Shown here piece after piece: positions 38,537 to 56,689 of a stretch of 64,000 nt of DNA. This DNA is from Streptomyces sp. NBC_00234 (GTDB lineage Bacteria > Actinomycetota > Actinomycetes > Streptomycetales > Streptomycetaceae), in NCBI RefSeq assembly GCF_036195325.1, contig NZ_CP108101.1:7006001-7070000 (forward strand), read 5' to 3'. Under the pieces are notes generated by a model. It saw nothing but the letters and a program-made list of their open reading frames with translations, made no database searches and was not told the DNA's origin. Within the stretch, counting starts at the first letter, position 1, and each line of letters begins with the position of its first letter. The translations under genes and the position numbers were made by a program.

Positions 38537-39520
38537 TCAGAGGGCACGCGCTTCGGGATGGCGCAGGCACCAGCCCTCCCAGGCGGACTCGACCATGTCG
38601 CGCACCCCGCGGCGGGCGGTCCAGTCCAGTTCCTCCGACATCCGGGCGGCCGAGGCGACGGCCTTGGCCGCGTCACCGGCCCGGCGCGGCTCGACGACGG
38701 GATCCAGCGGCAGGCCGGTGACCTCGCCCACCAGATCGGCCAGCTCGCGCACCGAGACGCCTTCGCCCCGGCCCACGTTCACCGTCAGGTCTCCCGCACC
38801 GGTCCGCTCGCCGAGCTTCCGAGCGACGGCGAGGTGCGCCTCGGCGAGATCCGCGACATGGATGTAGTCGCGCACACAGGTGCCGTCCGGCGTCGGGTAG
38901 TCGTCGCCGAAGATCCGCGGGGCCTCACCGCGCGTGAGCCGGTCGAAGAACATCGGGATGACATTGAAGACACCGGTGTCCGCGAGTTCGGGCTGCGCGG
39001 CGCCCGCCACGTTGAAGTAGCGCAGACAGGCGGTCGAGAGGGAGTGCGCCCGCCCCGTCGCACGCACCAGCCACTCGCCGGTGAGCTTCGTCTCGCCGTA
39101 GGGGTTGATGGGGGCGCACGGGGTGTCCTCGGTGATGAGCTCCACATCGGGCACGCCGTAGACGGCGGCGGACGAGGAGAAGAGGAAGCGCTGCACACCG
39201 GCGGCGACGACGGCTTCGAGCAGCACGGTCAGCCCGCCCACGTTCTCGCGGTAGTAGAGCAGCGGCTGCTCCACGGACTCACCGACCTGCTTCTTCGCCG
39301 CGAGATGCACCACACCGGTCACGGAGTGCTCGGCCAGGACCCGGTCGAGCAGCTCACGGTCCGATGCCGAGCCCCGCACGAGGGGGATGTCCTCGGGCAG
39401 CCGTCCCGCCATACCCGTGGAGATGTCGTCGAGTACGACGACGCTCTCCCCGGCCGAGGCCATGGCCTTCGCCACATGCGCCCCGATGTAACCCGCTCCA
39501 CCTGTAATCAGCCACGTCAT
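38537..39520 (-). CDS. galE: UDP-glucose 4-epimerase
   Basis: The 327-residue extended short-chain dehydrogenase has an N-terminal NAD motif GGAGYIGAHVAKAMASAGESVVVLDD, the catalytic SSSAAVYG serine region, and the YxxxK in NPYGETKLTGEW. The FNVAGAAQPELADTG and RDYIHVADLAEAHLAV segments are galE-typical. It interconverts UDP-glucose and UDP-galactose. It is divergent from the glycopolymer operon (start at 39748), so it may supply the sugar nucleotide that the GT2 enzyme there uses. That link is contextual only. Confidence 0.93.
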   Translation of the reverse strand: MTWLITGGAGYIGAHVAKAMASAGESVVVLDDISTGMAGRLPEDIPLVRGSASDRELLDRVLAEHSVTGVVHLAAKKQVGESVEQPLLYYRENVGGLTVLLEAVVAAGVQRFLFSSSAAVYGVPDVELITEDTPCAPINPYGETKLTGEWLVRATGRAHSLSTACLRYFNVAGAAQPELADTGVFNVIPMFFDRLTRGEAPRIFGDDYPTPDGTCVRDYIHVADLAEAHLAVARKLGERTGAGDLTVNVGRGEGVSVRELADLVGEVTGLPLDPVVEPRRAGDAAKAVASAARMSEELDWTARRGVRDMVESAWEGWCLRHPEARAL

Positions 39521-39747: not shown

Positions 39748-41580
39748 CTGTCGACCGCCATCCTCACCGGTGCGCCGGTACCCGGATCGTCGCTCGAGGA
39801 CGATCTGCGGTCCCTGGGCTTTGACGTACGGGCAGCCAACGACGCGACCGAGGCCGCCGAACTGCTCGCCGCGGTTCCCGCCGGCCGACGCGTCGCACTG
39901 GTCGACCCCCGCTTCGTCGGTCACGTCCACGCGCTGCGGCTCGGCCTGACCGACCCCCGGTTCGCCGCCGCCACCGTCCCCGGAGCACTCACCGCGCAGC
40001 CCGAGGCCCGGGCGGCACTCGTGCGCGCCCTGGACAGGACCGTGGCCGCGGTCGGCGCGGGAAGCCCCGTCGGGCCCGCGACCGCCGACCCGGACGCCGA
40101 GGACCGTACGGTCCCGGGCCGCCTCGCCGTGGCCCTGGCGGCCGAGGGCACCCCGGTGCAGCGCCCCGAGCTCGGTTCGCTCACCGCCGCCGTGCCCACC
40201 GATCCCGAAGCACGCGCCGCGGCCCGGACGGCCGTCGACGCCGTGGACGACGAGGCGGTACGGCTGCGCAGCGCGGTGAAGGCCCACGACGGCTTCGTCA
40301 CCACCTTCTTCATCAGCCCGTACTCCCGCTACATCGCCCGCTGGTGCGCGCGCCGCGGGTTCACCCCGAACCAGGTCACCACCGCCTCGCTGATCACCGC
40401 TCTGATCGCGGCCGGCAGCGCGGCGACCGGCACCCGCGGCGGCTACGTCGCCGCCGGTGTGCTGCTGCTCCTCTCCTTCGTCCTGGACTGCACGGACGGG
40501 CAGCTCGCCCGCTACTCGCTGCAGTACTCGACGATGGGCGCCTGGCTGGACGCCACGTTCGACCGGGCCAAGGAGTACGCGTACTACGCGGGCCTCGCGC
40601 TCGGAGCGGCCCGGGGCGGCGACGACGTATGGGTGCTCGCGCTCGGCGCGATGGTGCTCCAGGCGTGCCGCCACATAGTCGACTTCTCGTTCAACGAGGC
40701 CAATCACGACGCGGTCTCCAACACGAGCCCAACGGCAGCGCTCTCCGACCGGCTCGACAGCGTCGGCTGGACGGTCTGGCTGCGGCGGATGATAGTGCTG
40801 CCGATCGGCGAGCGCTGGGCCATGATCGCCGTGCTGACCGCGCTGACCACCCCCCGGATCGTGTTCTACGCCCTGCTCGTCGGCTGTTCCCTGGCCGCCT
40901 GCTACACCACCGCGGGCCGTCTGCTGCGCTCGCTGACCCGCAAGGCGCGGCGCACCGACCGGGCCGCGGTGGCCCTCGCGGACCTCGCGGACTCCGGGCC
41001 GCTCGCCCGCGCCGTGGCCGCCGTGAGCCCCCGGCTGCGCGGTGGCTTCACCGCCCCGCTGGTGGCGCTCACCGGCGCGCTGGCGATGATCGCCGCCGCC
41101 CTCTTCCTGCCGTACGGCAGCTGGCTTACGGTGGCCGTGGCCGCGCTCTACGTGGTCCTTTCCGGCATCGCCGTATCGCGCCCGCTCAAGGGCGCCCTCG
41201 ACTGGCTCGTACCCCCGTTCTTCCGGGCGGCGGAGTACTGCACGGTCCTCGTTCTGGCGGCCCGCAGTGACGTGCCGCACGCCGTTCCCGCGGCTTTCGG
41301 ACTGGTCTCGGCCGTCGCCTACCATCACTACGACACGGTGTACCGCATTCGCGGAGGCACCGGCGCGCCGCCCCAGTGGCTGGTGCGGACGATCGGTGGA
41401 CACGAGGGCCGGACCGCTGTGGTGGCCGTGTTCGCCGCCGTACTGACTCAGCACTCAGGTTTCACCACGGCTCTCACCGCGCTCGCGGTGGCCGTGGCTC
41501 TGGTGGTGCTCGTGGAGTCCATCCGCTTCTGGGTGTCCTCCTCGGCCCCCGCCGTACACGACGAAGGAGAACTCGCATGA
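39748..41580 (+). CDS. CDP-alcohol phosphatidyltransferase, DUF5941-type, large fusion
   Basis: The frame opens after a TGA at 39739 and has no ATG, GTG or TTG until GTG 40021, yet coding character and sequence continue upstream. A CTG at 39748 lies 9 bases after a perfect AAGGAG (39733-39738), so CTG is the probable start (610 residues). Residues 1-190 look like a Rossmann domain with degenerate nucleotidyltransferase character. The CDP-alcohol phosphotransferase core follows, beginning SPYSRYIARWCARRGFTPNQVT and including DCTDGQLARYSLQYSTMGAWLDATFD, which contains all four motif aspartates, plus multiple membrane helices. It would transfer a phosphoalcohol from a CDP- or NDP-activated donor. 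It overlaps the next gene by 4 bases. Confidence 0.82.
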   Translation: MSTAILTGAPVPGSSLEDDLRSLGFDVRAANDATEAAELLAAVPAGRRVALVDPRFVGHVHALRLGLTDPRFAAATVPGALTAQPEARAALVRALDRTVAAVGAGSPVGPATADPDAEDRTVPGRLAVALAAEGTPVQRPELGSLTAAVPTDPEARAAARTAVDAVDDEAVRLRSAVKAHDGFVTTFFISPYSRYIARWCARRGFTPNQVTTASLITALIAAGSAATGTRGGYVAAGVLLLLSFVLDCTDGQLARYSLQYSTMGAWLDATFDRAKEYAYYAGLALGAARGGDDVWVLALGAMVLQACRHIVDFSFNEANHDAVSNTSPTAALSDRLDSVGWTVWLRRMIVLPIGERWAMIAVLTALTTPRIVFYALLVGCSLAACYTTAGRLLRSLTRKARRTDRAAVALADLADSGPLARAVAAVSPRLRGGFTAPLVALTGALAMIAAALFLPYGSWLTVAVAALYVVLSGIAVSRPLKGALDWLVPPFFRAAEYCTVLVLAARSDVPHAVPAAFGLVSAVAYHHYDTVYRIRGGTGAPPQWLVRTIGGHEGRTAVVAVFAAVLTQHSGFTTALTALAVAVALVVLVESIRFWVSSSAPAVHDEGELA

Positions 41581-42314
41581 TCGGCCTCGTACTGGCAGCC
41601 GGTGCAGGACGACGTCTGCGCCCCTACACGGACACGCTTCCCAAGGCGCTCGTCCCTGTCGACGGCGACAAGACGGTCCTCGACCTCACGCTGGCCAACT
41701 TCGCCGAGGTCGGACTCACCGAGGTCGCGATCGTGGTCGGCTACCGCAAGGAAGCCGTCTACGCCCGCCAGGCGGAGCTCGAGGCGAAGTACGGCGTGAC
41801 GCTCACGCTGATCGACAACGACAAGGCCGAGGAGTGGAACAACGCCTACTCCCTGTGGTGCGCGCGTGAGGTCCTGAAGCGGGGCGTCATCCTCGCCAAC
41901 GGCGACACCGTGCACCCGGTCTCCGTCGAGAAGACCCTCCTGGACGCCCGCGGCAAGGGCCAGAAGATCATCCTCGCCCTCGACACGGTGAAGAACCTCG
42001 CCGACGAGGAGATGAAGGTCATCACGGAGGAGGGCAAGGGCGTCCAGCGCATCACCAAGCTGATGGACCCGGCCACCGCCACCGGCGAGTACATCGGTGT
42101 CACCCTCATCGAGCCCGAGGCCGCCGAGGAGCTCGCCGACGCGCTGAAGGTCACTTTCGAGCGCGACCCCGACCTCTACTACGAGGACGGCTACCAGGAG
42201 CTCGTGAACCGCGGCTTCCAGATCGACGTGGCCCCGATCGGCGAAGTGACGTGGGTCGAGATCGACAACCACGACGACCTCGCGAAGGGCCGTGAGATCG
42301 CGTGCCAGTACTGA
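41577..42314 (+). CDS. nucleotidyltransferase (LicC/IPCT-like, sugar- or alcohol-phosphate)
   Basis: The 245-residue protein begins MIGLVLAAGAGRRLRPYTDTLPKALVPV, the NTP-binding loop GAGxRLxPxT with the conserved PKxL/PK lysine. ANGDTVHPV carries the metal-binding aspartate and EEWNNAYSLWCA matches the phosphocholine or inositol-1-phosphate cytidylyltransferase group (IPCT, LicC). The product is therefore probably a CDP- (or other NDP-) alcohol that feeds the CDP-alcohol phosphotransferases encoded either side. It overlaps the previous gene as ATGA, and the next gene starts inside its last codons. The exact alcohol is not determined by sequence; glycerol-1-phosphate is suggested by the next gene. 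Confidence 0.88.
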   Translation: MIGLVLAAGAGRRLRPYTDTLPKALVPVDGDKTVLDLTLANFAEVGLTEVAIVVGYRKEAVYARQAELEAKYGVTLTLIDNDKAEEWNNAYSLWCAREVLKRGVILANGDTVHPVSVEKTLLDARGKGQKIILALDTVKNLADEEMKVITEEGKGVQRITKLMDPATATGEYIGVTLIEPEAAEELADALKVTFERDPDLYYEDGYQELVNRGFQIDVAPIGEVTWVEIDNHDDLAKGREIACQY

Positions 42315-43363
42315 CCCGGCTCATTCCGTCCCCGGTCGTCGTCGACATCAGGCGCGGCGCCATGGACGATCTGGCGGGTCTCCTGGCGGACCAGCGGATC
42401 TCCAACTCGGGCAAGCTCGCGATCGCGATCAGCGACGGCTCGGGACGCGCCCTGCGCGAGAGGCTCGCCCCGCTGCTCCCGGGTGCCGACTGGTATCCGG
42501 TGACCGACGGCACGATCGACTCGGCGGTGAAACTCGCCGACGGCATCAAGGGCAACCGGTACGACGCCGTCGTCGGCCTAGGCGGCGGGAAGATCATCGA
42601 CGTGGCGAAGTACGCCGCGGCGCGCGTCGGCCTGCCGCTGGTCGCGGTCGCGACGAACCTGTCGCACGACGGGCTCTGCTCGCCGGTCGCCACCCTCGAC
42701 AACGACAACGGGCGCGGCTCCTACGGAGTCCCCACCCCGATCGCCGTGGTCATCGACCTCGACATCATCCGTGAGGCACCCGCCCGGTACGTACGTTCCG
42801 GCATCGGCGACGCGATCTCGAACATCTCCTGCGTCGCCGACTGGGAACTCGCCCACGAGGTCAACGGCGAGGAGATCGACGGTCTCGCCGCGGCCATGGC
42901 GCGACAGGCCGGCGAGGCCGTGCTGCGCCACCCCGGCGGTGTCGGCGACGACGCCTTCCTCAAGGTGCTGGCCGAGGGTCTCGTCCTGACGGGCATCTCC
43001 ATGTCGGTCGCCGGGGACTCCCGGCCGGCCTCCGGTGCCTGCCACGAGATCAACCACGCCTTCGACCTGCTGTATCCCCAGCGGGCGGCCAGCCACGGCG
43101 AGCAGGTCGGCCTCGGCGCCTGCTTCGCCATGCACCTGCGCGGAGCACACGAGGAATCGCTGCTGATGGCGGAGATACTGCGACGCCACGGCCTGCCGGT
43201 GCTGCCCGAGGAGATCGGCTTCACGGTCGACGAGTTCGTGACCGCCGTCGACTACGCGCCGCAGACGCGGCCCGGACGCTTCACGATCCTGGAACACCTC
43301 AACCTGTCCACCGACCAGATCAAGGACGCATACGCCGACTATGCAAAAGCCATCGGTAGCTGA
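42302..43363 (+). CDS. iron-containing alcohol dehydrogenase (sn-glycerol-1-phosphate dehydrogenase-like)
   Basis: The 353-residue protein starts at GTG 42302, inside the previous gene by 13 bases. The NAD loop is VVGLGGGKIIDVAKYAAARVGLPLVAVAT, then TNLSHDGLCSPVATL. The metal-site histidines lie in SGACHEINHAFD near residue 255 and in AASHGEQVGLG near 273. This layout is that of AraM/EgsA, the NAD(P)-dependent sn-glycerol-1-phosphate dehydrogenases, rather than of ordinary group III alcohol dehydrogenases. It would reduce dihydroxyacetone phosphate to sn-glycerol-1-phosphate, an alcohol mostly known from archaeal lipids. 3-Dehydroquinate-like or other dehydrogenases remain possible. Confidence 0.85.
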   Translation: MPVLTRLIPSPVVVDIRRGAMDDLAGLLADQRISNSGKLAIAISDGSGRALRERLAPLLPGADWYPVTDGTIDSAVKLADGIKGNRYDAVVGLGGGKIIDVAKYAAARVGLPLVAVATNLSHDGLCSPVATLDNDNGRGSYGVPTPIAVVIDLDIIREAPARYVRSGIGDAISNISCVADWELAHEVNGEEIDGLAAAMARQAGEAVLRHPGGVGDDAFLKVLAEGLVLTGISMSVAGDSRPASGACHEINHAFDLLYPQRAASHGEQVGLGACFAMHLRGAHEESLLMAEILRRHGLPVLPEEIGFTVDEFVTAVDYAPQTRPGRFTILEHLNLSTDQIKDAYADYAKAIGS

Positions 43364-44120
43364 GCTCCGGCCGGTCGTTCACCCCCCGGGTGTGAAGGAC
43401 CGCAGGAGCGGCGAGCACTGGGCCGGCCGGCTCTACATGCGCGAGGTCTCCCTCCGCATCGACCGGCACCTGGTGAACACACGGGTCACGCCCAACCAAG
43501 TGACCTACGTGATGACCGTCGCGGGTGCCCTCGCCGCCCCGGCACTCCTCGTGCCGGGCATCGCGGGCGCCCTGCTCGGCGTGCTGATGGTCCAGCTCTA
43601 TCTGCTGCTCGACTGCGTCGACGGCGAGATCGCCCGCTGGAGGAAGCAGTACTCGCTCGCCGGTGTCTATCTGGACCGGGTCGCCGCCTACCTCTGCGAC
43701 GCCGCGGTCCTGGTCGGCTTCGGCCTGCGCGCCTCCGACCTCTGGGGCGAGGGGCGGATCGACTGGCTGTGGGCCTTCCTCGGCACCCTGGCCGCACTCG
43801 GCGCGATCCTGATCAAGGCGGAGACCGACCTCGTCGGCGTCGCCCGTCACCAGGGCGGCATGCCCCCGGTGAAGGAGTCGGCCTCCGAGCCCCGCTCGTC
43901 CGGCATGGCGCTGGCCCGCAAGGCCGCCGCCGCGCTGAAGTTCCACCGGCTGGTCCTCGGGGTCGAGGCGTCCCTGCTGATCCTGGCCGCGGCGATCGCG
44001 GACAGCATCAGGGGCGACCTGTTCTTCTCGCGGCTCGGCGTCGCCGTCCTGGCGGGGATCGCCCTTCTGCAGACCGTGCTCCACCTGGTGTCGGTCCTCG
44101 CTTCGAGCAGGCTGAAGTGA
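43341..44120 (+). CDS. CDP-alcohol phosphatidyltransferase family protein with altered motif
   Basis: The 259-residue membrane protein overlaps the previous gene by 23 bases. The core motif is DCVDGEIARWRKQYSLAG, then VYLDRVAAY. Compared with the consensus DG-x2-AR-x8-G-x3-D-x3-D, the last aspartate is replaced by alanine (GCC), and that residue is thought to be the catalytic base in characterised members. The neighbouring TPNQVTYVMTV and the DG and AR elements are intact. It may use a different base, or be a non-catalytic partner of the large CDP-alcohol enzyme encoded earlier in the operon. Confidence 0.85.
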   Translation: MQKPSVAELRPVVHPPGVKDRRSGEHWAGRLYMREVSLRIDRHLVNTRVTPNQVTYVMTVAGALAAPALLVPGIAGALLGVLMVQLYLLLDCVDGEIARWRKQYSLAGVYLDRVAAYLCDAAVLVGFGLRASDLWGEGRIDWLWAFLGTLAALGAILIKAETDLVGVARHQGGMPPVKESASEPRSSGMALARKAAAALKFHRLVLGVEASLLILAAAIADSIRGDLFFSRLGVAVLAGIALLQTVLHLVSVLASSRLK

Positions 44121-45001
44121 GTTCTCCCATGAAACTCGGCGCAGTCGTCATCACCATGGGGAACCGGCCCGCCGAGTTGCGTGCCCTCCTCGATTCGGTC
44201 GCCCAGCAGGACGGCGATCGGATCGAGGTGGTCGTCGTCGGCAACGGCGCCCCCGTCCCGGACGTGCCCGCAGGCGTACGGACGGTGGAGCTGCCCGAGA
44301 ATCTGGGAATCCCCGGTGGCCGCAATGTCGGCATCGAGGCGTTCGGCCCGTCCGGCGCCGATGTCGACGCCCTGCTCTTCCTCGACGACGACGGGCTCCT
44401 CCCGAACACCGACACCGCCGAGCTCTGCCGGCAGGCGTTCGGCGTGGACGAGAAGCTGGGCATCATCACCTTCCGTATCGCCGACCCGGACACCGGAGTC
44501 ACCCAGCGCCGGCACGTGCCCAGGCTCCGGGCCTCCGACCCGATGCGCTCGTCCCGGGTGACGACCTTCCTCGGCGGCGCCAACGCCGTACGCACGCAGG
44601 TCCTCGCCGAGGTCGGCGGGCTGCCGGACGACTTCTTCTACGCCCACGAGGAGACCGATCTGGCCTGGCGGGCGCTCAACGCCGGCTGGATGATCGACTA
44701 CCGCGCGGACATGGTGCTCAACCACCCGACCACCGCTCCTTCGCGGCACGCCGTCTACCACCGTATGGTTGCCCGGAACAGGGTCTGGCTCGCACGTCGC
44801 AACCTTCCCGCGCCCCTGGTTCCCGTCTACGTCGGTGTCTGGCTGCTGCTGACCCTGGTCCGCAGGCCGTCCGGCCCCGCGCTCAAGGCATGGTTCGGTG
44901 GTTTCCGGGAAGGCTGGGCAACGCCCTGCGGACCTCGACGTCCGATGAAGTGGCGTACGGTGTGGCGGCTGACCAGACTGGGCCGCCCTCCCGTGATCTG
45001 A
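44117..45001 (+). CDS. family 2 glycosyltransferase
   Basis: The start is placed at GTG 44117, overlapping the previous stop as GTGA; ATG 44129 is in frame but has a poor ribosome site. At 294 residues it has the GT-A fold opening LGAVVITMGNRPAELRALLDSVAQQ, LPENLGIPGGRNVGIEAF, and the metal-binding DDD of FLDDDGLLPNTDT near residue 92. YAHEETDLAWRALNAGWMIDY carries the ED/x-W acceptor-side motif of bacterial GT2 enzymes. The GGRN and ExDL segments resemble rhamnosyl- and galactosyl-type transferases. It would add a sugar to the polymer exported by the next two genes. Confidence 0.9.
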   Translation: MSSPMKLGAVVITMGNRPAELRALLDSVAQQDGDRIEVVVVGNGAPVPDVPAGVRTVELPENLGIPGGRNVGIEAFGPSGADVDALLFLDDDGLLPNTDTAELCRQAFGVDEKLGIITFRIADPDTGVTQRRHVPRLRASDPMRSSRVTTFLGGANAVRTQVLAEVGGLPDDFFYAHEETDLAWRALNAGWMIDYRADMVLNHPTTAPSRHAVYHRMVARNRVWLARRNLPAPLVPVYVGVWLLLTLVRRPSGPALKAWFGGFREGWATPCGPRRPMKWRTVWRLTRLGRPPVI

Positions 45002-45105
45002 GAGGCTCGCCTCTGAGAGCATGAGGCGTATTTTCTTTCCGGGACCTGTCCGCCTGAGCCGCGCCCGCGACTGGCTGCGCATCTTGAAGACGAGAGTTTC
45101 AACTT

Positions 45106-46035
45106 GTGAGTGACACAACCCATGACGGCTCGGTCGCGCTGAGCGACCTGCCGTCCGCCGACAAGGGCCTCAGCGCGGCCCAGGTGGCCGACAAGTACGG
45201 CCTCACGGTGAGCGGCGCCCGGCCGGGGCTGACCCAGTACATCCGGCAGCTCTGGGGCCGGCGCCACTTCATCATGGCGTTCTCCCGGGCGAAGCTGACG
45301 GCTCAGTACAGCCAGGCCAAACTCGGCCAGCTGTGGCAGGTGGCGACACCGCTGCTGAACGCCCTGGTCTACTACCTGATCTTCGGGCTGATCCTGGGGA
45401 CCCGGAAGGGGATGACCCAGGAGGTCTTCATCCCGTTCCTGGTGACCGGCGTCTTCGTGTTCACCTTCACGCAGAGCTCGGTCATGGCGGGAGTCCGCTC
45501 GATCTCCGGCAATCTCGGGCTGGTCCGGGCGCTGCACTTCCCCCGTGCCTCGCTGCCCATCTCCTTCTCGCTCCAGCAGCTCCAGCAGCTGATGTTCTCG
45601 ATGATCGTGCTGGTGGCCGTGGCCGTGGGCTTCGGCAGCTATCCGTCGCTCTCCTGGCTGCTGGTCGTGCCCGCGCTCGTCATGCAGTTCTTCTTCAACA
45701 CGGGGCTGGCGCTCGCCATGGCCAGGCTGGGCAGCAAGACGCCCGACCTGGCGCAGCTGATGCCGTTCGTGATGCGGACCTGGATGTACGCGTCGGGTGT
45801 CATGTTCTCCATCCCGGTGATGCTCGCGGACAAGCCGCAATGGATCGCCGACGTGCTGCAGTACAACCCGGCTGCCATCTACATGGACCTGGTGCGCTTC
45901 GCGCTCATCGACGGGTACGGCTCCGAGAACCTGCCGCAGCACGTCTGGGCCGTCGGGCTCGCCTGGGCGCTCTTCGTGGGCATCGCGGGCTTCGTGTACT
46001 TCTGGAAGGCAGAGGAACGGTACGGCCGTGGCTGA
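45106..46035 (+). CDS. ABC transporter permease, polysaccharide/teichoic-acid export type
   Basis: The 309-residue integral membrane protein starts at GTG 45106 and has six predicted helices, with an N-terminal cytoplasmic part of about 60 residues. It belongs to the ABC-2 TagG/Wzm class: RRHFIMAFSRAKLTAQYSQAKLGQLWQVATPLLNALVYYLIFG is the typical entry, and WMYASGVMFSIPVMLADKP the exit. These permeases export undecaprenyl-linked glycopolymers. The ATPase partner follows with an 8-base overlap. It is preceded by a 104-base gap containing a small AGAGGC/GCCTCT hairpin. Confidence 0.9.
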   Translation: MSDTTHDGSVALSDLPSADKGLSAAQVADKYGLTVSGARPGLTQYIRQLWGRRHFIMAFSRAKLTAQYSQAKLGQLWQVATPLLNALVYYLIFGLILGTRKGMTQEVFIPFLVTGVFVFTFTQSSVMAGVRSISGNLGLVRALHFPRASLPISFSLQQLQQLMFSMIVLVAVAVGFGSYPSLSWLLVVPALVMQFFFNTGLALAMARLGSKTPDLAQLMPFVMRTWMYASGVMFSIPVMLADKPQWIADVLQYNPAAIYMDLVRFALIDGYGSENLPQHVWAVGLAWALFVGIAGFVYFWKAEERYGRG

Positions 46036-46813
46036 GGACAAGATCCAGGGGAAGATTCCCACCGTCATCGCCGACGACGTGCACATCGTGTACCGCGTCA
46101 ACGGTGCCGGCGGAGGCAGGGGAAGCGCCACCGCGGCACTGAGCCGGATAGTGCGCCGCGGCAAGGGCGAGTCGCGCGGTGTCCGCACGGTGCACGCCGT
46201 GCGTGGTGTCACCTTCACCGCGTACCGGGGCGAGGCCATCGGCCTCATCGGAACCAACGGCTCCGGCAAGTCGACGCTGCTCCGGGCCATCGCCGGGCTT
46301 CTGCCGACCGAGCACGGCAAGGTGTACACGGACGGTCAGCCCTCGCTGCTCGGTGTGAACGCCGCGCTCATGAGCGATCTGACCGGTGAGCGCAACGTCG
46401 TCCTCGGTGGCCTGGCCATGGGGATGAGCCGCGAGGAGATCCGCTCGCGCTACGACGAGATCGTCGAGTTCTCGGGCATCAACGAGAAGGGCGACTTCAT
46501 CACGCTGCCGATGCGGACGTACTCCTCGGGTATGGCCGCCCGGCTGCGCTTCTCGATCGCCGCCGCCAAGAACCACGACGTACTCATGATCGACGAGGCG
46601 CTGGCCACCGGTGACCGCAAGTTCCGCATCCGCTCCGAGGAGCGGATCCGCGAGCTCCGCAAGGAGGCGGGCACCGTCTTCCTGGTCAGTCACAACAACA
46701 AGTCGATCAGGGACACCTGCGACCGCGTGCTGTGGCTGGAGAAGGGTGAGCTCCTGATGGACGGGCCCACCGAAGAGGTCCTCAAGGCGTACGAGCGGGA
46801 GACCAGCAAGTAG
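46028..46813 (+). CDS. ABC transporter ATP-binding protein, TagH/Wzt-like
   Basis: The 261-residue protein starts at GTG 46028 inside the permease gene. Walker A is GTNGSGKST near residue 75, the TagH-type segments LGVNAALMSDLTGERNVVLGG and YSSGMAARLRFSIAAAKNHDVLMIDEAL carry the signature and Walker B, and VSHNNKSIRDTCDRVLWLEKG has the switch histidine. About 50 N-terminal residues precede the ATPase core. There is no C-terminal carbohydrate-binding domain of the long Wzt type, so export is not coupled to chain-end recognition by this protein. The stop is followed by a strong terminator that ends the operon. Confidence 0.92.
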   Translation: MAEDKIQGKIPTVIADDVHIVYRVNGAGGGRGSATAALSRIVRRGKGESRGVRTVHAVRGVTFTAYRGEAIGLIGTNGSGKSTLLRAIAGLLPTEHGKVYTDGQPSLLGVNAALMSDLTGERNVVLGGLAMGMSREEIRSRYDEIVEFSGINEKGDFITLPMRTYSSGMAARLRFSIAAAKNHDVLMIDEALATGDRKFRIRSEERIRELRKEAGTVFLVSHNNKSIRDTCDRVLWLEKGELLMDGPTEEVLKAYERETSK

Positions 46814-47141: not shown

Positions 47142-47204
47142 ATGACGGTAAATCTCCAGCTCCGACGTGGTCTCGCCGTCCCCGCGCCGGGCGGTACGCA
47201 GTGA
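47142..47204 (+). CDS. candidate 20-residue leader peptide overlapping hpnC start
   Basis: ATG 47142 with GGGAG about 11 bases upstream opens a 20-codon frame (MTVNLQLRRGLAVPAPGGTQ). Its TGA overlaps the GTG start of hpnC as GTGA at 47201-47204. This matches the stop-start coupling used throughout the operon, so translation of hpnC may depend on it. It has no family resemblance that I recognise. Confidence 0.45.
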   Translation: MTVNLQLRRGLAVPAPGGTQ

Positions 47205-48121
47205 CCCGTACCCCTCAGGCACGCCCCGACGCGGCGGTCACCGGCACGCTCGACAAGGCCGCGGACGAGAACTTCCCCGTGGCTCCTTTCTTCCTGCCCC
47301 GCGCCTGGCGCGACGACCTGATGGCCGTCTACGGATTCGCCCGCCTCGTCGACGACATCGGTGACGGCGACCTCGCCCCCGGTGGCGCCGACGCCCGCCA
47401 TCTCGGCCTGGACCCGGCCGCGGCCGACGACCGGCTCGCCATGCTCGACGCCTTCGAGGCCGACCTGCACCGGGTCTTCGCGACCACGGGCGACGGTCCG
47501 CGTCACCCCCTGCTGCGTGCACTGCGCCCCACCGTGCGGCGCTGCGCGCTCACCCCCGAGCCGTTCCTCGGACTCGTCGAGGCTAACCGGCAGGACCAGA
47601 AGATCCGCCGCTACGGGACCTACGGGGAACTCCTCGCCTACTGCGAGCTCTCCGCCAACCCGGTCGGCCGCCTGGTCCTCCAGATCACCGGCACCGCCAG
47701 CCCCGAACGGATCCGGCGCTCCGACGCGATCTGCACGGCCCTGCAGATCGTCGAGCACCTCCAGGACGTCACCGAGGACCTCGGACGCGACCGGATCTAT
47801 CTGCCGGCCGAGGACATGGCCCGGTTCCATGTCGGCGAATCCGACCTGGCAGCCCCCTCAGGGGGCGCGTCGGTGCGCAGCCTCGTGGCCTACGAGGCCG
47901 AACGCGCGCGTGACCTGTTGAATGAAGGCACCCCGCTGGTGGGTAGCGTCCACGGCAGACTCAAGCTGCTGCTCGCCGGATTCGTCGCCGGAGGGCGAGC
48001 CGCCCTCACCGCGATCGGAGCCGCCGGGTTCGACGTACTGCCCGGACCGCCCAGACCCACGACGCCCAGCTTGCTGCGCGAAGTGGGAGTTGTCTTGCGA
48101 AGAGCGCGTAGAGAGGGATGA
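47201..48121 (+). CDS. hpnC: hydroxysqualene synthase HpnC
   Basis: The 306-residue protein of the squalene/phytoene synthase fold is the first main gene of the hopanoid operon. The two aspartate-rich diphosphate-binding motifs are YGFARLVDDIGDGD near residue 45 and EHLQDVTEDLGRDRIYLPAEDM near 185. In the HpnCDE route, HpnD makes presqualene diphosphate, HpnC converts it to hydroxysqualene, and HpnE reduces that to squalene. The assignment as C rather than D rests on gene order and on the shorter active-site loop. The stop overlaps the hpnD start as ATGA. Confidence 0.92.
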   Translation: MTRTPQARPDAAVTGTLDKAADENFPVAPFFLPRAWRDDLMAVYGFARLVDDIGDGDLAPGGADARHLGLDPAAADDRLAMLDAFEADLHRVFATTGDGPRHPLLRALRPTVRRCALTPEPFLGLVEANRQDQKIRRYGTYGELLAYCELSANPVGRLVLQITGTASPERIRRSDAICTALQIVEHLQDVTEDLGRDRIYLPAEDMARFHVGESDLAAPSGGASVRSLVAYEAERARDLLNEGTPLVGSVHGRLKLLLAGFVAGGRAALTAIGAAGFDVLPGPPRPTTPSLLREVGVVLRRARREG

Positions 48122-49071
48122 GCCGGACCGTGGAGGGACAGACGACGTACATGTCGGCACCGGTACAGGCCGCATACAGTTACTGCGAGGCCGTCACCGG
48201 ACAGCAGGCCCGTAACTTCGCGTACGGCATCAGGCTGTTGCCGTACGAGAAGCGGCAGGCCATGTCGGCGCTGTACGCCTTCTCCCGTCGGGTCGACGAC
48301 ATCGGCGACGGTGAGCTGGCCCCGGAGATCAAGCGGACCCGGCTGGAAAGCACCCGGGACCTGCTCGACCGGATCAGGAACGGTGCGGTCGACGAGGACG
48401 ACACCGACCCGGTGGCCGTCGCGCTCGCCGACACCGCCCGGCGCTTCCCCCTGCCGCTCGGCGGGCTCGACGAGCTCATCGACGGCGTGCTGATGGACGT
48501 CCGCGGCGCGACGTACGAGACCTGGGACGACCTCAAGACGTACTGCCGGTGTGTCGCGGGCGCCATCGGACGGCTCAGCCTGGGCGTTTTCGGTACGGAA
48601 CCGGGCGCACCCGGCGCCGAGCGCGCCGCCGACTACGCCGACACCCTCGGCCTCGCCCTCCAGCTCACCAACATCCTGCGCGACGTCCGGGAGGACGCCG
48701 CCAACGGGCGGACGTATCTGCCGGCCGACGACCTGGCCAAATTCGGCTGCTCCGCCGGATTCCACCGGGCCACCCCGCCGCCCGGCTCCGACTTCGCGGG
48801 CCTGGTGCACTTCGAGGTACGGCGCGCCCGGACGCTGTTCGCCGAGGGCTACCGGCTGCTGCCGATGCTCGACCGCCGCAGCGGAGCGTGCGTGGCCGCG
48901 ATGGCCGGTATCTACCGCCGCCTCCTCGACCGGATCGAGCGCGACCCCGAGGCCGTGCTGCGTGGCCGGGTCTCGCTGCCGGGACACGAGAAGGCGTACG
49001 TGGCGGTGCGCGGCCTGTCCGGCCTCGACGCGCGCCACATCTCGCGCCTCACGACGAGGGGACGGGGCTGA
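48118..49071 (+). CDS. hpnD: presqualene diphosphate synthase HpnD
   Basis: The 317-residue squalene/phytoene synthase family member starts at ATG 48118, overlapping hpnC by 4 bases; ATG 48151 is a later alternative. The motifs are ALYAFSRRVDDIGDGE near residue 52 and LTNILRDVREDAANGRTYLPADD near 182, and AVTGQQARNFAYGIRLLPYEKRQAMSALYAF is the typical HpnD opening. It condenses two farnesyl diphosphates head to head. The product passes to HpnC. Its TGA overlaps the ATG of the following micro-gene as TGATG. Confidence 0.93.
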   Translation: MSRTVEGQTTYMSAPVQAAYSYCEAVTGQQARNFAYGIRLLPYEKRQAMSALYAFSRRVDDIGDGELAPEIKRTRLESTRDLLDRIRNGAVDEDDTDPVAVALADTARRFPLPLGGLDELIDGVLMDVRGATYETWDDLKTYCRCVAGAIGRLSLGVFGTEPGAPGAERAADYADTLGLALQLTNILRDVREDAANGRTYLPADDLAKFGCSAGFHRATPPPGSDFAGLVHFEVRRARTLFAEGYRLLPMLDRRSGACVAAMAGIYRRLLDRIERDPEAVLRGRVSLPGHEKAYVAVRGLSGLDARHISRLTTRGRG

Positions 49072-49220
49072 TGCGCACCACGGACAGTCACCACGCCCCT
49101 GCGCGACGCCACCCCGCGTCGGCCGGCCCTCCGGGGTCCCGGGCAACCCTCCGGTGGCCTGACGCGTCCCTGACTGCGACGATCTGGATGGCGGAGAACC
49201 AGCGAGAGGGGGACGCATGA
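49071..49220 (+). CDS. DUF6380-like small protein in the hopanoid operon
   Basis: This 49-residue gene lies between hpnD and hpnE. It is coupled on both sides: its ATG overlaps the hpnD stop (TGATG at 49069-49073), and its TGA overlaps the hpnE ATG (ATGA at 49217-49220). Its centre, RATLRWPDASLTATIWMA, resembles what I recall of DUF6380, a small Streptomyces family with the core RATLR...ASLTATA. It is arginine- and histidine-rich with no membrane segment. The function is unknown. The exact interlocking of start and stop codons argues that it is really translated. Confidence 0.6.
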   Translation: MRTTDSHHAPARRHPASAGPPGSRATLRWPDASLTATIWMAENQREGDA

Positions 49221-50605
49221 GCGACGAGAGCCTGCGCTCCTCCCGTGCGGTGGTCGTCGGCGGCGGCCTCGCCGGGATCACGACCGCCCTGCGTCTCGCG
49301 GACGCCGGGGTTGACGTGACCCTGCTCGAAGGGCGGCCCCGGCTGGGCGGCCTCGCCTTCTCCTTCCGCCGCGGCGAGCTCAGCGTCGACAACGGCCAGC
49401 ACGTCTACCTGCGCTGCTGCACGGGCTACCGGTGGTTCCTCGACCGGATCGACGGTGCCCACCTCGCCCCGCTCCAGGACCGCCTCGACGTACCCGTGCT
49501 CGACGTCGGGCGCGCCGCCGGGCCACGCCTCGGCAGGCTGCGCCGCACCGGCCTCCCCGTGCCCCTGCACCTCGCGCCTGGCCTCGCCGCCTATCCGCAC
49601 CTCTCGCTGGCCGAAAAGGCGAGCGTCGGACGGGCCGCACTCGCGCTCGGCCGCCTCGACCCGGCCGACCCCGCGCTCGACGGCATCGACTTCGCGACCT
49701 GGCTCGGCCGGCACGGGCAGTCGCCGCGCACCATCGAGGCCCTGTGGGACCTCGTCGGGGTGGCCACGCTCAACGCCACCGCGGCGAACGCCTCCATGGC
49801 CCTGGCCGCCATGGTCTTCAAGACGGGGCTGCTGTCCGAGCCCGGTGCCGCGGACATCGGCTGGGCGGCCGTGCCGCTCGGGGAGCTCCACGACACCCTC
49901 GCCCGCAAGGCCCTGGACTCGGCCGGCGTACGGACCGAGCTGCGGACCCGGGTCGGTTCCCTGTCCCGTACCGAGGACGGCCGCTGGGCCGTCGAGACGG
50001 ACAGTGAGCGGATCGAGGCGGAGACCGTCGTCCTCGCCGTCCCGCAGGACGAGACCCACGGGCTGCTGCCCGAAGGCGCGCTGCACGACCCGGACCGGCT
50101 CCTCGACATCGGCACCGCGCCCATTCTGAACGTGCACGTCGTCTACGACCGCAAGGTGCTGCGCAGGCCCTTCTTCGCCGCACTCGGCTCGCCCGTGCAG
50201 TGGGTCTTCGACCGCACCGAATCCTCCGGGCTCCAGGGTCCGGGACAGTACCTCGCGGTCTCCCAGTCGGCGGCCCAGGACGAGATCGACCTGCCCGTGG
50301 CCGAGCTGCGCAGGCGCTATCTGCCCGAGCTGGAGCGGCTTCTTCCGGCCGCCCGCGGGGCAGGCGTCCGCGACTTCTTCGTCACCCGGGAGCGCACCGC
50401 GACGTTCGCGCCCGCACCCGGAGTCGGCCGGCTCCGGCCGGGCACCCGTACCCGCGCACCCGGCCTCCACCTGGCGGGCGCGTGGACCGCAACCGGCTGG
50501 CCCGCGACGATGGAGGGCGCGGTGCGCAGCGGTATGAGCGCTGCCGACGCCGCGCTCGGCGCTCTCGGCCGCCCCCATGAACATCCGCTGCAGGAGGCGG
50601 CATGA
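49217..50605 (+). CDS. hpnE: hydroxysqualene dehydroxylase HpnE (FAD)
   Basis: The 462-residue amine-oxidase-type flavoprotein begins with the FAD motif AVVVGGGLAGITTALRLADAGVDVTLLEGRPRLGG, followed by FRRGELSVDNGQHVYLRCCTGYRWFLDRI, the HpnE signature. The C-terminal flavin-contact region is APGLHLAGAWTATGWPATMEGAVRSG. It reduces hydroxysqualene to squalene, so the operon makes squalene without classical squalene synthase. It starts inside the micro-gene stop codon, and its own stop overlaps the next start as ATGA. Confidence 0.93.
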   Translation: MSDESLRSSRAVVVGGGLAGITTALRLADAGVDVTLLEGRPRLGGLAFSFRRGELSVDNGQHVYLRCCTGYRWFLDRIDGAHLAPLQDRLDVPVLDVGRAAGPRLGRLRRTGLPVPLHLAPGLAAYPHLSLAEKASVGRAALALGRLDPADPALDGIDFATWLGRHGQSPRTIEALWDLVGVATLNATAANASMALAAMVFKTGLLSEPGAADIGWAAVPLGELHDTLARKALDSAGVRTELRTRVGSLSRTEDGRWAVETDSERIEAETVVLAVPQDETHGLLPEGALHDPDRLLDIGTAPILNVHVVYDRKVLRRPFFAALGSPVQWVFDRTESSGLQGPGQYLAVSQSAAQDEIDLPVAELRRRYLPELERLLPAARGAGVRDFFVTRERTATFAPAPGVGRLRPGTRTRAPGLHLAGAWTATGWPATMEGAVRSGMSAADAALGALGRPHEHPLQEAA

Positions 50606-51705
50606 GCTGTACCACCGGAACAAGAGGAGAGTCAGTGACCCCGGCGAATCCGGCTTTCGACACCGTGGCAGACACCGCGGACGTCATCGCGCTTCTGGAG
50701 CGCGGACGGGCCATGTCCACGCCGGTGCTGCGGGCTGCCGTGGACCGGCTCGCGCCGCCCATGGACACCGTCGCCGCCTACCACTTCGGCTGGATCGACG
50801 CCCAGGGCCGGCCCGCCGACGGCGACGGGGGCAAGGCGGTACGCCCCGCCCTCGCCCTGCTGTCCGCCGAGGTGGCGGGTGCCCCGGCCGAGGCCGGGCT
50901 CCCCGGCGCCGTGGCCGTCGAGCTCGTACACAACTTCTCGCTGCTGCACGACGACCTGATGGACGGTGACGAGCAGCGCCGCCACCGGGACACGGTGTGG
51001 AAGGTGCACGGACCGGCGCAGGCGATCCTCGTCGGCGACGCGCTCTTCGCGCTCGCCAACGAGATCCTGCTGGAGCTCGGCACCGTCGAGGCGGGCCGGG
51101 CGGCCCGCCGGCTGACCACGGCCACGCGCAAGCTGATCGACGGCCAGGCCCAGGACATCTCGTACGAACACCGCGAGCGGGTCACCGTCGAGGAGTGCCT
51201 GGAGATGGAGGGCAACAAGACGGGCGCCCTGCTCGCCTGCGCCGTCTCCATCGGCGCCGTGCTCGGCGGGGCGGACGACCGCACCGCCGACACCCTGGAG
51301 GCGTACGGCTACCACCTCGGCCTCGCCTTCCAGGCCGTCGACGACCTGCTCGGCATCTGGGGCGACCCGGAGGCCACCGGCAAGCAGACCTGGAGCGATC
51401 TGCGCCAGCGCAAGAAGTCGCTGCCGGTCGTCGCCGCGCTCGCCGCGGGCGGACCCGCCTCGGAGCGCCTCGGCGAACTGCTGGCCGCCGATGCGAAGAG
51501 CGCCGACTTCGACAGCTTCTCCGAAGAGGAGTTCGCCGTCCGTGCGGCGCTCATCGAGGAGGCGGGCGGCCGGGAATGGACCGCCCAGGAAGCACGCAGG
51601 CAGCACGCGGTCGCCATCGAGGCGCTGCACGGTGTGGACATGCCCGAAGAGGTGCGGGCCCAGCTCACCGCGCTCGCCGATTTCGTCGTCGTACGAAAGA
51701 GATGA
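50602..51705 (+). CDS. polyprenyl (farnesyl) diphosphate synthase
   Basis: The 367-residue trans-isoprenyl diphosphate synthase starts at ATG 50602 (AGGAGG 4 bases upstream); GTG 50635, with GAGGAG 5 bases upstream, is a close alternative. The first aspartate motif is LHDDLMDGDEQRR with GGKAVRP upstream, and the second is FQAVDDLLGIWGD. The tyrosine-type residue five positions before the first DDxxD that limits chain length is not clearly aromatic here, so the C15 or C20 product cannot be fixed. In the operon its job is to supply farnesyl diphosphate for HpnD. Confidence 0.9.
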   Translation: MSCTTGTRGESVTPANPAFDTVADTADVIALLERGRAMSTPVLRAAVDRLAPPMDTVAAYHFGWIDAQGRPADGDGGKAVRPALALLSAEVAGAPAEAGLPGAVAVELVHNFSLLHDDLMDGDEQRRHRDTVWKVHGPAQAILVGDALFALANEILLELGTVEAGRAARRLTTATRKLIDGQAQDISYEHRERVTVEECLEMEGNKTGALLACAVSIGAVLGGADDRTADTLEAYGYHLGLAFQAVDDLLGIWGDPEATGKQTWSDLRQRKKSLPVVAALAAGGPASERLGELLAADAKSADFDSFSEEEFAVRAALIEEAGGREWTAQEARRQHAVAIEALHGVDMPEEVRAQLTALADFVVVRKR

Positions 51706-51812
51706 TGACCATCCGCTCCATATGACTCGCAGTCGCCGGCCGGCGCCCTCACCGGGTGCCGGCCGACGGAGACCCCAGCACAGCAGAGGACCAACTGCAC
51801 GAAGGGGAAGCC

Positions 51813-53813
51813 ATGACAGCGACGACCGACGGAAGCACCGGAGCCGCGAACCTCCGCGCAGCCTCGGCCAGCGAACCGACCGACACAACCATCGCCGCGG
51901 ACGACGTTCTCGCCGCCGCGCGGCGGGCCGCGGAACGCTCGGTGGAGCATCTCCTCGGCAGGCAGGACGAGCAGGGCTGGTGGAAGGGGGACCTCGCCAC
52001 CAACGTCACCATGGACGCAGAGGACCTGCTGCTGCGCCAGTTTCTCGGGATCCAGGATCCCGCCACCGTCGAGGCGACCGCCCGCTTCATCCGGGGCGAG
52101 CAGCTCGGCGACGGCACCTGGGCGACCTTCTACGAGGGGCCGGGCGACCTCTCCGCCACCATCGAGGCGTACGTGGCGCTCCGGCTGGCCGGAGACAGCC
52201 CGCAGGATCCGCACATGGCCCGGGCGGCCCGCTGGGTCCGGGAACAGGGCGGCATCGCCGCCGCCCGTGTCTTCACCAGGATCTGGCTCGCCCTCTTCGG
52301 CTGGTGGAAGTGGGACGACCTGCCCGAGCTGCCACCCGAGTTGATGTTCTTTCCCAAATGGGTTCCGCTCAACATCTATGACTTCGGCTGCTGGGCCCGC
52401 CAGACCATCGTTCCGCTCACCGTCGTCTCGGCCAAGCGGCCGGTACGGCCCGCCCCGTTCGCCCTCGACGAGCTGCACACCGATCCCGCCTGCCCGAACC
52501 CGCCCAAGCGCATGGCGCCGACGGCGAGTTGGGACGGGATCTTCCAGCGGCTCGACAAGGCGATGCACGTCTACCACCGGGTCGCCCCCCGTCGGCTGCG
52601 GCGCATCGCCATGAACGCCGCGGCCCGGTGGATCATCGAGCGTCAGGAGAACGACGGCTGCTGGGGCGGAATCCAGCCGCCCGCCGTGTACTCCGTGATC
52701 GCCCTGCATCTGCTCGGCTACGACCTCGACCACCCGGTCATGCGGGCCGGACTGGCCTCGCTCGACCGCTTCGCCGTCCGGCGCGAGGACGGCGCCCGCA
52801 TGATCGAGGCGTGCCAGTCCCCGGTCTGGGACACCTGTCTCGCGACCATCGCGCTCGCCGACGCCGGGCTCCGCCCCGACCACCCGGCTCTGGTGAAGGC
52901 CGCCGACTGGATGCTCGGCGAAGAGATCGGCAGGCCCGGCGACTGGTCGGTACGCAAACCCGAACTCGCCCCGGGTGGCTGGGCGTTCGAGTTCCACAAC
53001 GACAACTACCCCGATATCGACGACACCGCGGAGGTGGTCCTGGCGCTGCGCCGGGTCCGCCACCCCGACCCCGTACGGCTCGAAGCCGCCATCGAGCGGG
53101 GCGTGCGCTGGAACCTGGGCATGCAGTCCCGCAACGGTGCCTGGGGAGCCTTCGACGCGGACAACACCAGTCCGTTCCCCAACCGGCTGCCGTTCTGCGA
53201 CTTCGGCGAGGTCATCGACCCGCCGTCCGCCGACGTCACCGGGCACGTGGTGGAGATGCTCGCCGTCGAGGGCAGGTCCCACCACCCCCGTACCCGGCGG
53301 GGCATCGAGTGGCTGCTCGCCGAACAGGAGGCGAGCGGGGCGTGGTTCGGGCGGTGGGGCGTCAACTACATCTACGGAACGGGGTCCGTGGTGCCCGCAC
53401 TGGTCGCCGCGGGACTGCCCGCGGGGCATCCGTCGATCCGCCGCGCCGTTGGCTGGCTGGAGTCCGTCCAGAACGACGACGGCGGCTGGGGCGAGGACCT
53501 GCGCTCCTACCAGGAGGAGAAGTGGATCGGTCACGGCGCCTCGACCGCGTCCCAGACCGCCTGGGCGCTCCTCGCGCTCCTGGCCGCCGGAGAGCGTGAC
53601 GGCAGGTCCGTGGAGCGAGGTGTGACCTGGCTGGCCGAGGCCCAGCAGCCGGACGGCTCCTGGGACGAGCCGTACTTCACCGGAACCGGGTTCCCCTGGG
53701 ACTTCTCCATCAATTACCACCTGTACCGGCAGGTCTTCCCGCTCACCGCGCTCGGCAGGTACGTGTACGGCGACCCGTTCGCCGACCGCGCCCCCCTCCG
53801 TAAGGGGGCCTGA
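51813..53813 (+). CDS. shc: squalene-hopene cyclase
   Basis: The start is ATG 51813 (MTATTDG) behind GAAGGGG, giving 666 residues; the longer open frame from 51756 is not needed. The catalytic acid motif is DIDDTAEVVL, D401-IDD, the DxDD that protonates squalene. Several QW repeats are present (QDEQGWWKGD, QENDGCWGGI, QSRNGAWGAF, QEASGAWFGR, QNDDGGWGED, QQPDGSWDEP). WGVNYIYGTGSVV and WDFSINYHLYRQVFPL are typical family ends. It is a monotopic membrane enzyme cyclising squalene to hopene and hopanol. It overlaps hpnG as TGATG. Confidence 0.96.
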   Translation: MTATTDGSTGAANLRAASASEPTDTTIAADDVLAAARRAAERSVEHLLGRQDEQGWWKGDLATNVTMDAEDLLLRQFLGIQDPATVEATARFIRGEQLGDGTWATFYEGPGDLSATIEAYVALRLAGDSPQDPHMARAARWVREQGGIAAARVFTRIWLALFGWWKWDDLPELPPELMFFPKWVPLNIYDFGCWARQTIVPLTVVSAKRPVRPAPFALDELHTDPACPNPPKRMAPTASWDGIFQRLDKAMHVYHRVAPRRLRRIAMNAAARWIIERQENDGCWGGIQPPAVYSVIALHLLGYDLDHPVMRAGLASLDRFAVRREDGARMIEACQSPVWDTCLATIALADAGLRPDHPALVKAADWMLGEEIGRPGDWSVRKPELAPGGWAFEFHNDNYPDIDDTAEVVLALRRVRHPDPVRLEAAIERGVRWNLGMQSRNGAWGAFDADNTSPFPNRLPFCDFGEVIDPPSADVTGHVVEMLAVEGRSHHPRTRRGIEWLLAEQEASGAWFGRWGVNYIYGTGSVVPALVAAGLPAGHPSIRRAVGWLESVQNDDGGWGEDLRSYQEEKWIGHGASTASQTAWALLALLAAGERDGRSVERGVTWLAEAQQPDGSWDEPYFTGTGFPWDFSINYHLYRQVFPLTALGRYVYGDPFADRAPLRKGA

Positions 53814-54466
53814 TGGGCCATGCGCAGGGGCCGTCCGGCGCCGCGATCCCGCTCCTGATCGCCTGCGCGCTCTCCATCGAGCACCTCGCGCTGCGCAGTG
53901 GCAGGGCCGGCGGGGCTCCCGGCCCGGTGAGCGTCGTCAGGACCGGGATGGGCCCCAGGGCGGCCGAGGCGGCCGTCGGGCGCGCGCTGGGCCGCGAGCG
54001 GACCGCCGACGCCGCCGTCATCGCCTCGGGCTTCTGTGCGGGCCTGGCCCCCGGCATGCACCCCGGGGACCTGGTGGTGGCCGAGGAGACCAGGGACGCC
54101 GCAGGCGCGTCCCTCTGTACCGGCTCGGGCGTCCTCGTCGACGCCCTGGCCAGGGCGGTGCCCGGGCGCACCGTCCACACCGGTCCGCTGACCGGTTCGG
54201 ACCATGTCGTACGCGGCTCCGAGCGGGCCGAGCTGCGGGCCACCGGGGCCATCGCGGTGGACATGGAGTCCGCCGCCACGCTGCGTACCGCCCTGCGGGA
54301 GGGGCCGCGCCCGGTTGCGGCCGTACGGGTGGTCGTGGACGCTCCAGAGCATGAGCTCGTCCGTATCGGCACGGTTCGCGGTGGAATATCGGCTTTCCGC
54401 GTTCTTCGTGCTGTCCTGCCGGCTTTCTATGAATGGCACCGTTCTTTGCTGCTCCCCAGGAGGTGA
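53813..54466 (+). CDS. hpnG: adenosylhopane nucleosidase HpnG
   Basis: The 217-residue protein of the MTA/SAH-nucleosidase (purine phosphorylase) fold has the segments SGFCAGLAPGMHPGDLVVAEETRD and ATGAIAVDMESAATLRTAL, where the M-E-S is the ribose-binding motif. It removes adenine from adenosylhopane to give ribosylhopane (or its phosphate). The substrate is inferred from its place between shc and hpnH rather than from motifs, because other nucleosidases share them. The ATG overlaps the shc stop, and hpnH begins 6 bases after this stop. Confidence 0.9.
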   Translation: MGHAQGPSGAAIPLLIACALSIEHLALRSGRAGGAPGPVSVVRTGMGPRAAEAAVGRALGRERTADAAVIASGFCAGLAPGMHPGDLVVAEETRDAAGASLCTGSGVLVDALARAVPGRTVHTGPLTGSDHVVRGSERAELRATGAIAVDMESAATLRTALREGPRPVAAVRVVVDAPEHELVRIGTVRGGISAFRVLRAVLPAFYEWHRSLLLPRR

Positions 54467-54472
54467 GCCCAG

Positions 54473-55492: not shown

Positions 55493-55496
55493 GGCC

Positions 55497-56663: not shown

Positions 56664-56689
56664 AAACCGGACCAGAGAGGGGCCCGAGC

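Follow-up and report, generated by a model that had tools for sequence, protein, structure and literature searches.

Polyglycerolphosphate lipoteichoic acid (LTA) and wall teichoic acid (WTA) of near-identical structure are known from Streptomyces hygroscopicus; LtaS is absent from Actinobacteria, the LTA route there is unexplained, and how Streptomyces synthesizes both polymers without LtaS has been a question since LTA was described in the genus (PMC3196553). Here, we analyze a seven-gene operon in a 64,000-nt window (the whole stretch of DNA analyzed) of the 8.27 Mb chromosome of Streptomyces sp. NBC_00234. It encodes two CDP-alcohol phosphotransferases (CdpA and CdpB), a LicC-like nucleotidyltransferase, a dehydrogenase resembling glycerol-1-phosphate dehydrogenases (G1PDHs), a family 2 glycosyltransferase (GT2), and the permease and ATPase of a TagGH-type ABC exporter. 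In our reading, in which the substrates, their stereochemistry, the acceptor, the product and any supply to TagF are all inferred, the operon probably synthesizes an envelope glycoconjugate containing glycerol phosphate and exports it, and its CDP-glycerol probably also feeds TagF clusters.

Among described systems, the TagD/TagF/TagGH teichoic acid pathway resembles the operon in its CDP-glycerol logic and TagGH-type exporter, and TagF stands beside the nucleotidyltransferase–dehydrogenase pair in several lineages. The operon differs in that the dehydrogenase and LicC-like enzyme would replace TagD, implying sn-glycerol 1-phosphate (G1P) rather than glycerol 3-phosphate, and in holding CDP-alcohol phosphotransferases instead of TagB/TagF. 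The IPCT/DIPPS systems of di-myo-inositol phosphate synthesis (4mnd; AF2299, 4o6m) likewise join a nucleotidyltransferase to a membrane CDP-alcohol phosphotransferase using a CDP-polyol, with folds that match CdpA and CdpB. In contrast to these, the operon encodes the two activities in separate genes and adds a G1PDH-like dehydrogenase, a GT2 and an exporter, its CdpB lacks the fourth motif Asp, its CdpA carries DUF5941, and scores against NF041135 are 49–53 bits versus an equivalog cut-off of 580. AraM/PcrB and the archaeal G1PDH/GGGPS systems also possess a G1PDH-family dehydrogenase, but the operon's G1P would enter CTP activation rather than a prenyl ether. Similarly, mycobacterial galactan export (GlfT1, RfbDE) couples a GT2 to an ABC-2 exporter, and at one locus (L205) the pair accompanies GlfT2 and UDP-galactopyranose mutase (UGM), whereas GT2 and the ABC genes of the operon itself match the respective profiles far under cut-off. 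The first-pass annotation was aware of no Streptomyces polymer ascribed to precisely this gene set. The set has nonetheless been described in part: a 2026 pan-proteome synteny paper reports clusters of CDP-alcohol transferase, GT2 and sugar-phosphate nucleotidyltransferase genes near crtB, tagH, tagG and araM and calls them teichoic-acid-associated; the passage concerned offers no pathway (PMC13118837). A literature search on the presumed S. coelicolor counterparts (SCO6752–6758) turned up no functional study. The present analysis adds the logic of the module, the argument from TagD, the loss of a CdpB motif residue and the CTG start, each described below.

By sequence comparison, the dehydrogenase groups with G1PDHs. 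It scores 234.5 bits against NF002022, the archaeal G1P dehydrogenase model (equivalog cut-off 413), versus 87.7 bits for the glycerol dehydrogenase model; among solved structures, archaeal-type G1PDHs reach 131–140 bits versus 66 bits for the best GldA-type glycerol dehydrogenase. Its top solved match, 3ce9 (152 bits), is labelled a glycerol dehydrogenase but has the SG.EH..SHALD motif in common with it. Alignment with orthologues and solved G1PDHs shows the zinc ligands Asp, His and His to be kept, together with SRP[AC]SG..H; within the SRP[AC]SG region, Cys stands where the solved enzymes carry Glu (SGACHEINHAFD), and the distant orthologue at locus L153 has Glu in place of the Asp metal ligand. 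On family resemblance, its only basis, the glycerol phosphate would probably have sn-1 stereochemistry. The nucleotidyltransferase is LicC/IPCT-like, and its nearest solved relative is 1jyk, the LicC CTP:phosphocholine cytidylyltransferase, with which it shares NDK..NN.YSL; we propose that it is a CTP:glycerol-phosphate cytidylyltransferase, its use of CTP being predicted from this likeness. Both enzymes thus retain the G1P dehydrogenase-like and cytidylyltransferase-like labels they had been given at first. The parallel to archaeal ether lipids drawn at the same time holds up to G1P and fails beyond it, with no PcrB/GGGPS homologue found in any of the 30 genomes searched.

The wider distribution of these genes supports the view that the set constitutes one conserved pathway. 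The dehydrogenase is present in all 150 Streptomyces genomes and in 198 of 200 Streptomycetaceae, in 72 of 297 genomes of the class (E 1e-60) and in 42 of 396 of the phylum (E 1e-30). Across 80 named Streptomyces loci, every one of the seven genes was detected in 79–80, and the gene order is identical in all 75 Streptomyces loci that hold the seven genes and hpnC. Since the order never varies in these loci and the dehydrogenase is genus-wide, the arrangement is not a matter of chance, which bears out the initial claim of a single pathway and the genus-wide presence considered with it; the essentiality proposed on that condition, and a polymer made by this operon alone, gain no support here. 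Whole or partial, the set also occurs without nearby hopanoid genes in distant actinobacteria (L148, L149, L150, L153, L204 and L208), where open reading frames (ORFs) were predicted by a simple GC-frame method, with tblastn checks of the key loci. L148, from a different class of the same phylum, preserves the order CdpA–nucleotidyltransferase–G1PDH–CdpB–GT2–permease–ATPase unchanged, and L204 and L208 have permease–ATPase–CdpA–nucleotidyltransferase–G1PDH–CdpB–GT2.

This survey also bears on a different product, namely a small glycerophospholipid or modified hopanoid, for which CdpA/CdpB would attach G1P as the head group of a lipid or hopanoid that the ABC pair would then flip. Consistent with it, the gene after the operon is hpnC in 76 of the 80 named Streptomyces loci, the operon has one glycosyltransferase and no obvious polymerase, and CDP-alcohol phosphotransferases usually yield small phosphodiesters. 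However, the surroundings of 22 non-Streptomyces loci contain no hpnC, hpnD or hpnE, which makes the hopanoid link a matter of local synteny, and the exporter most resembles those for teichoic acid and galactan; we therefore regard such a product as unlikely. A hopanoid or ether-lipid role as such was rejected, given the lack of hopanoid genes by the non-Streptomyces loci and of PcrB in the 30 genomes.

Our analysis further shows that the nucleotidyltransferase–dehydrogenase pair is a portable module. At L211, nucleotidyltransferase, G1PDH, permease, ATPase, TagF and a family 4 glycosyltransferase lie in a row with UGM nearby, the pair opening this TagGH–TagF operon at the place expected for TagD; at L205, the order is nucleotidyltransferase–G1PDH–GlfT2–permease–ATPase, again with UGM nearby. 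The presence of UGM beside the pair at both loci, and of GlfT2 at L205, suggests a glycerol-phosphate-substituted galactofuranan. Elsewhere, we recovered permease–ATPase–CdpA–TagF (L160), CdpA–nucleotidyltransferase–TagF-like (L152), and a TagF-like gene together with an IspD+SDR fusion, transcribed divergently from the operon (L202). Within Streptomyces, 12 genomes carry a second dehydrogenase copy, 65–81% identical to that of the operon and in most cases with its nucleotidyltransferase partner, situated between rne and rplU-rpmA-obg without CdpA/CdpB (as at loci L110–L115, L161 and L177–L180). In at least 10 of these 12 genomes, the second copy has a Glyphos_transf (TagF) gene no more than about 15 kb away, against a random-site expectation of about 2%, the copies sharing one ancestral locus so that the counts are not independent and reflect one or few events. 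The cases at L211, L205, L160, L152 and L202 are independent. Because the pair recurs at TagF-, GlfT2- and TagGH-type loci, we take glycerol to be the alcohol and the cell envelope its destination; the pair probably makes CDP-glycerol for envelope polymers generally, likely in the sn-1 form. An activated alcohol other than glycerol, be it inositol or a different polyol on the pattern of IPCT/DIPPS systems, would accord with the phosphotransferase domains, which are closest to IPCT-DIPPS and AF2299, and with the IspD+SDR fusions, like CDP-ribitol makers, that adjoin the operon in L202 and L210. We consider it improbable, as the dehydrogenase groups with G1PDHs, the pair recurs beside TagF, and no inositol-1-phosphate synthase was noticed among the loci read. 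Separately, L155, L156 and L157 contain a more distant dehydrogenase–nucleotidyltransferase pair (about 40% identity) alongside genes for a DUF4012 protein, a WbaP-type sugar transferase and a protein resembling type I phosphodiesterases; these clusters are possibly another glycerol-phosphate polysaccharide system.

The relation of the proposed CDP-glycerol module to teichoic acid genes was examined with TIGR01518 (TagD) and PF04464 (TagF family) profiles in a panel of 60 genomes, comprising 59 Streptomyces, the genome under study included, and one class-mate. PF04464 matched in 57 genomes (56 of the 59 Streptomyces), whereas TagD exceeded its cut-off in none of the 60, the present genome included, which places the operon outside the curated TagD pathway; 29 panel genomes combine a strong TagF with no TIGR01518 match of 54 bits or more. 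An orthodox TagD was accordingly rejected as the CDP-glycerol source, just sub-cut-off PF01467 proteins being present. The genome's own TagF cluster (3.15–3.17 Mb of the chromosome; L181/L182) holds several TagF genes and paralogues of the operon's permease and ATPase, to which the operon's proteins are 61% and 75% identical, respectively, and no maker of CDP-glycerol was recognized in it. The same genome encodes, in an exopolysaccharide-like region (L183:8558-10229), a PF01467 TagD-like protein (170 aa; 67 bits against TIGR01518) divergent from another CDP-alcohol phosphotransferase.

Both phosphotransferases belong to PF01066, and AF2299 and IPCT-DIPPS are their nearest relatives by sequence and predicted fold: the CdpA model matches IPCT-DIPPS 4mnd and AF2299, and that of CdpB matches AF2299. 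These folds are of moderate confidence (predicted local distance difference test 74–76) and say little of DUF5941, for which we found no literature, beyond its being a membrane domain. In CdpA, the motif D1xxD2Gxx(A/S)R...GxxxD3xxxD4 is complete (DCTDGQLARYSLQYSTMGAWLDATFD) and is kept in the orthologues whose motif was read. CdpB (GVYLDRVAA) retains D1–D3 with Ala at D4, leaving its motif incomplete; its orthologues have Ala or His at this position within Streptomyces and His in other actinobacteria, with Asp in no orthologue read. In an M. tuberculosis CDP-alcohol phosphotransferase, D4 is a ligand of Mg-2 and is presumed to act as catalytic base (PMC6506517). As this presumed base is missing, CdpB is a variant catalyst or else serves as a partner subunit; the earlier assignment of both proteins to this enzyme family stands, and the notion of two normal catalysts is not supported.

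The exporter proved to be TagGH/Wzm-Wzt-type, in agreement with its first description as TagGH-like: the permease matches 9cfp and 6jbh TarG in the PDB, and the best solved relatives of the ATPase are TagH/TarH (TagH 7dd0, 1.9e-51). A mycobacterial galactan exporter equivalog was tried for the two ABC genes and rejected on profile score. GT2 shows weak similarity to GlfT1 and rhamnosyltransferases, far under the cut-offs of NF050113 and TIGR01556, and a single weak PDB match, PglI 9jma. Conservation of GT2 and a TagGH-type ABC-2 exporter in the same operon makes a soluble phosphodiester solute, e.g. diglycerol phosphate, most improbable, even though DIPPS-type relatives, as their NCBIfam names indicate, make solutes.

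In the pathway that we propose, the dehydrogenase would reduce dihydroxyacetone phosphate (DHAP) to G1P, which the LicC-like enzyme would convert with CTP to CDP-glycerol. CdpA, with the altered CdpB as helper or partner, would then use CDP-glycerol to place phosphoglycerol on a hydroxyl of an acceptor that is in the membrane or lipid-linked; GT2 would add a sugar, with the divergent galE the likely supply of UDP-galactose, and the TagGH-type ABC pair would flip the product to the outer side. The separate TagF clusters for Streptomyces poly(glycerol phosphate) teichoic acid, which have no above-cut-off TagD, probably draw on the same CDP-glycerol.

Several observations weigh against this pathway. 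By score, the dehydrogenase falls short of EgsA/AraM membership, the ABC genes lie under the TagGH equivalog cut-offs (178.9 versus 320 bits for the ATPase with NF010066, TagH), and CdpB has lost its presumed base; CDP-alcohol phosphotransferases are not known to be polymerases. The second dehydrogenase copies trace to a single ancestral locus, and sub-cut-off TagD-like proteins (54–70 bits) occur in 28 of the 60 panel genomes. Among the 297 genomes of the class, 72 dehydrogenase-positive and 24 TagD-like genomes show no overlap where 5.8 were expected (P = 0.0009 by genome), but by genus P = 0.09 and 18 of the 24 TagD-like genomes are from one family; this non-overlap is suggestive by genome and is given no weight in our argument. 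Three Streptomyces genomes (G517, G417 and G484) have no TagF match and a fourth (G425) a very weak one, all with the dehydrogenase kept. Because G484 retains the whole operon, and G517 and G417 the dehydrogenase, the operon has a TagF-independent role, and its own use of CDP-glycerol through CdpA/CdpB and GT2 is needed in the pathway. LTA is reported from some Streptomyces species only (PMC3196553) while the operon is universal, and for this reason we do not claim LTA as its product.

A broader possibility, which we put forward tentatively and hold to be somewhat doubtful, is that Streptomyces and many actinobacteria build glycerol (lipo)teichoic acids from CDP-sn-glycerol-1-phosphate, with G1PDH and the LicC-like enzyme replacing TagD and the universal operon making a primer or lipid-linked unit through CdpA/CdpB. 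If true, a genus-wide CDP-glycerol module of opposite expected stereochemistry could explain how teichoic acid is made without the usual enzyme, and the G1P enantiomer, a textbook marker of archaeal lipids, would serve routinely in building a major bacterial cell envelope.

The features are listed in the table. ORF reading and Pfam/NCBIfam profiles verified seven same-direction ORFs (39748–46813), and the junctions in gene order (-4, -13, -23, -4, +104 and -8 bp) overlap at five of six, as expected from the first-pass annotation, which had all genes but one overlapping and galE divergent.

Table. Coordinates (window positions) and profile assignments of the operon and adjacent genes
Feature	Position	Strand	Basis or remark
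galE, UDP-glucose 4-epimerase	38537..39520	-	divergent from operon; TIGR01179 324 bits, exceeding cut-off of 262
cdpA, alpha/beta N-domain, CDP-alcohol phosphotransferase domain and C-terminal DUF5941 membrane domain	39748..41580	+	PF01066 and PF19365 over cut-off
LicC/IPCT-like nucleotidyltransferase, putative CTP:glycerol-phosphate cytidylyltransferase	41577..42314	+	PF00483 NTP_transferase
G1PDH-like dehydrogenase, putative DHAP to G1P	42302..43363	+	PF13685 Fe-ADH_2; top NCBIfam match the G1P dehydrogenase model
cdpB, second CDP-alcohol phosphotransferase, fourth motif Asp replaced	43341..44120	+	PF01066 over cut-off
GT2 glycosyltransferase	44117..45001	+	PF00535 Glycos_transf_2
ABC-2 permease, TarG/Wzm type	45106..46035	+	PF01061 ABC2_membrane
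ABC ATPase, TagH type, without C-terminal carbohydrate-binding extension	46028..46813	+	NF010066 178.9 bits
Hopanoid/isoprenoid (MEP-pathway) cluster	47201..58600		downstream of operon; hpnC, hpnD, hpnE, polyprenyl synthase, shc, one unassigned gene, hpnH, ispG, dxs

The polyprenyl synthase of the downstream hopanoid cluster has as its best match a family 2 encapsulin cargo model (408.6 bits, just under the cut-off of 450). In cdpA, ATG, GTG and TTG are absent before codon 92, and a CTG at 39748–39750 is preceded by AAGGAG; the start codon is CTG in all 71 Streptomyces orthologues checked, a rare start that is nonetheless retained genus-wide.

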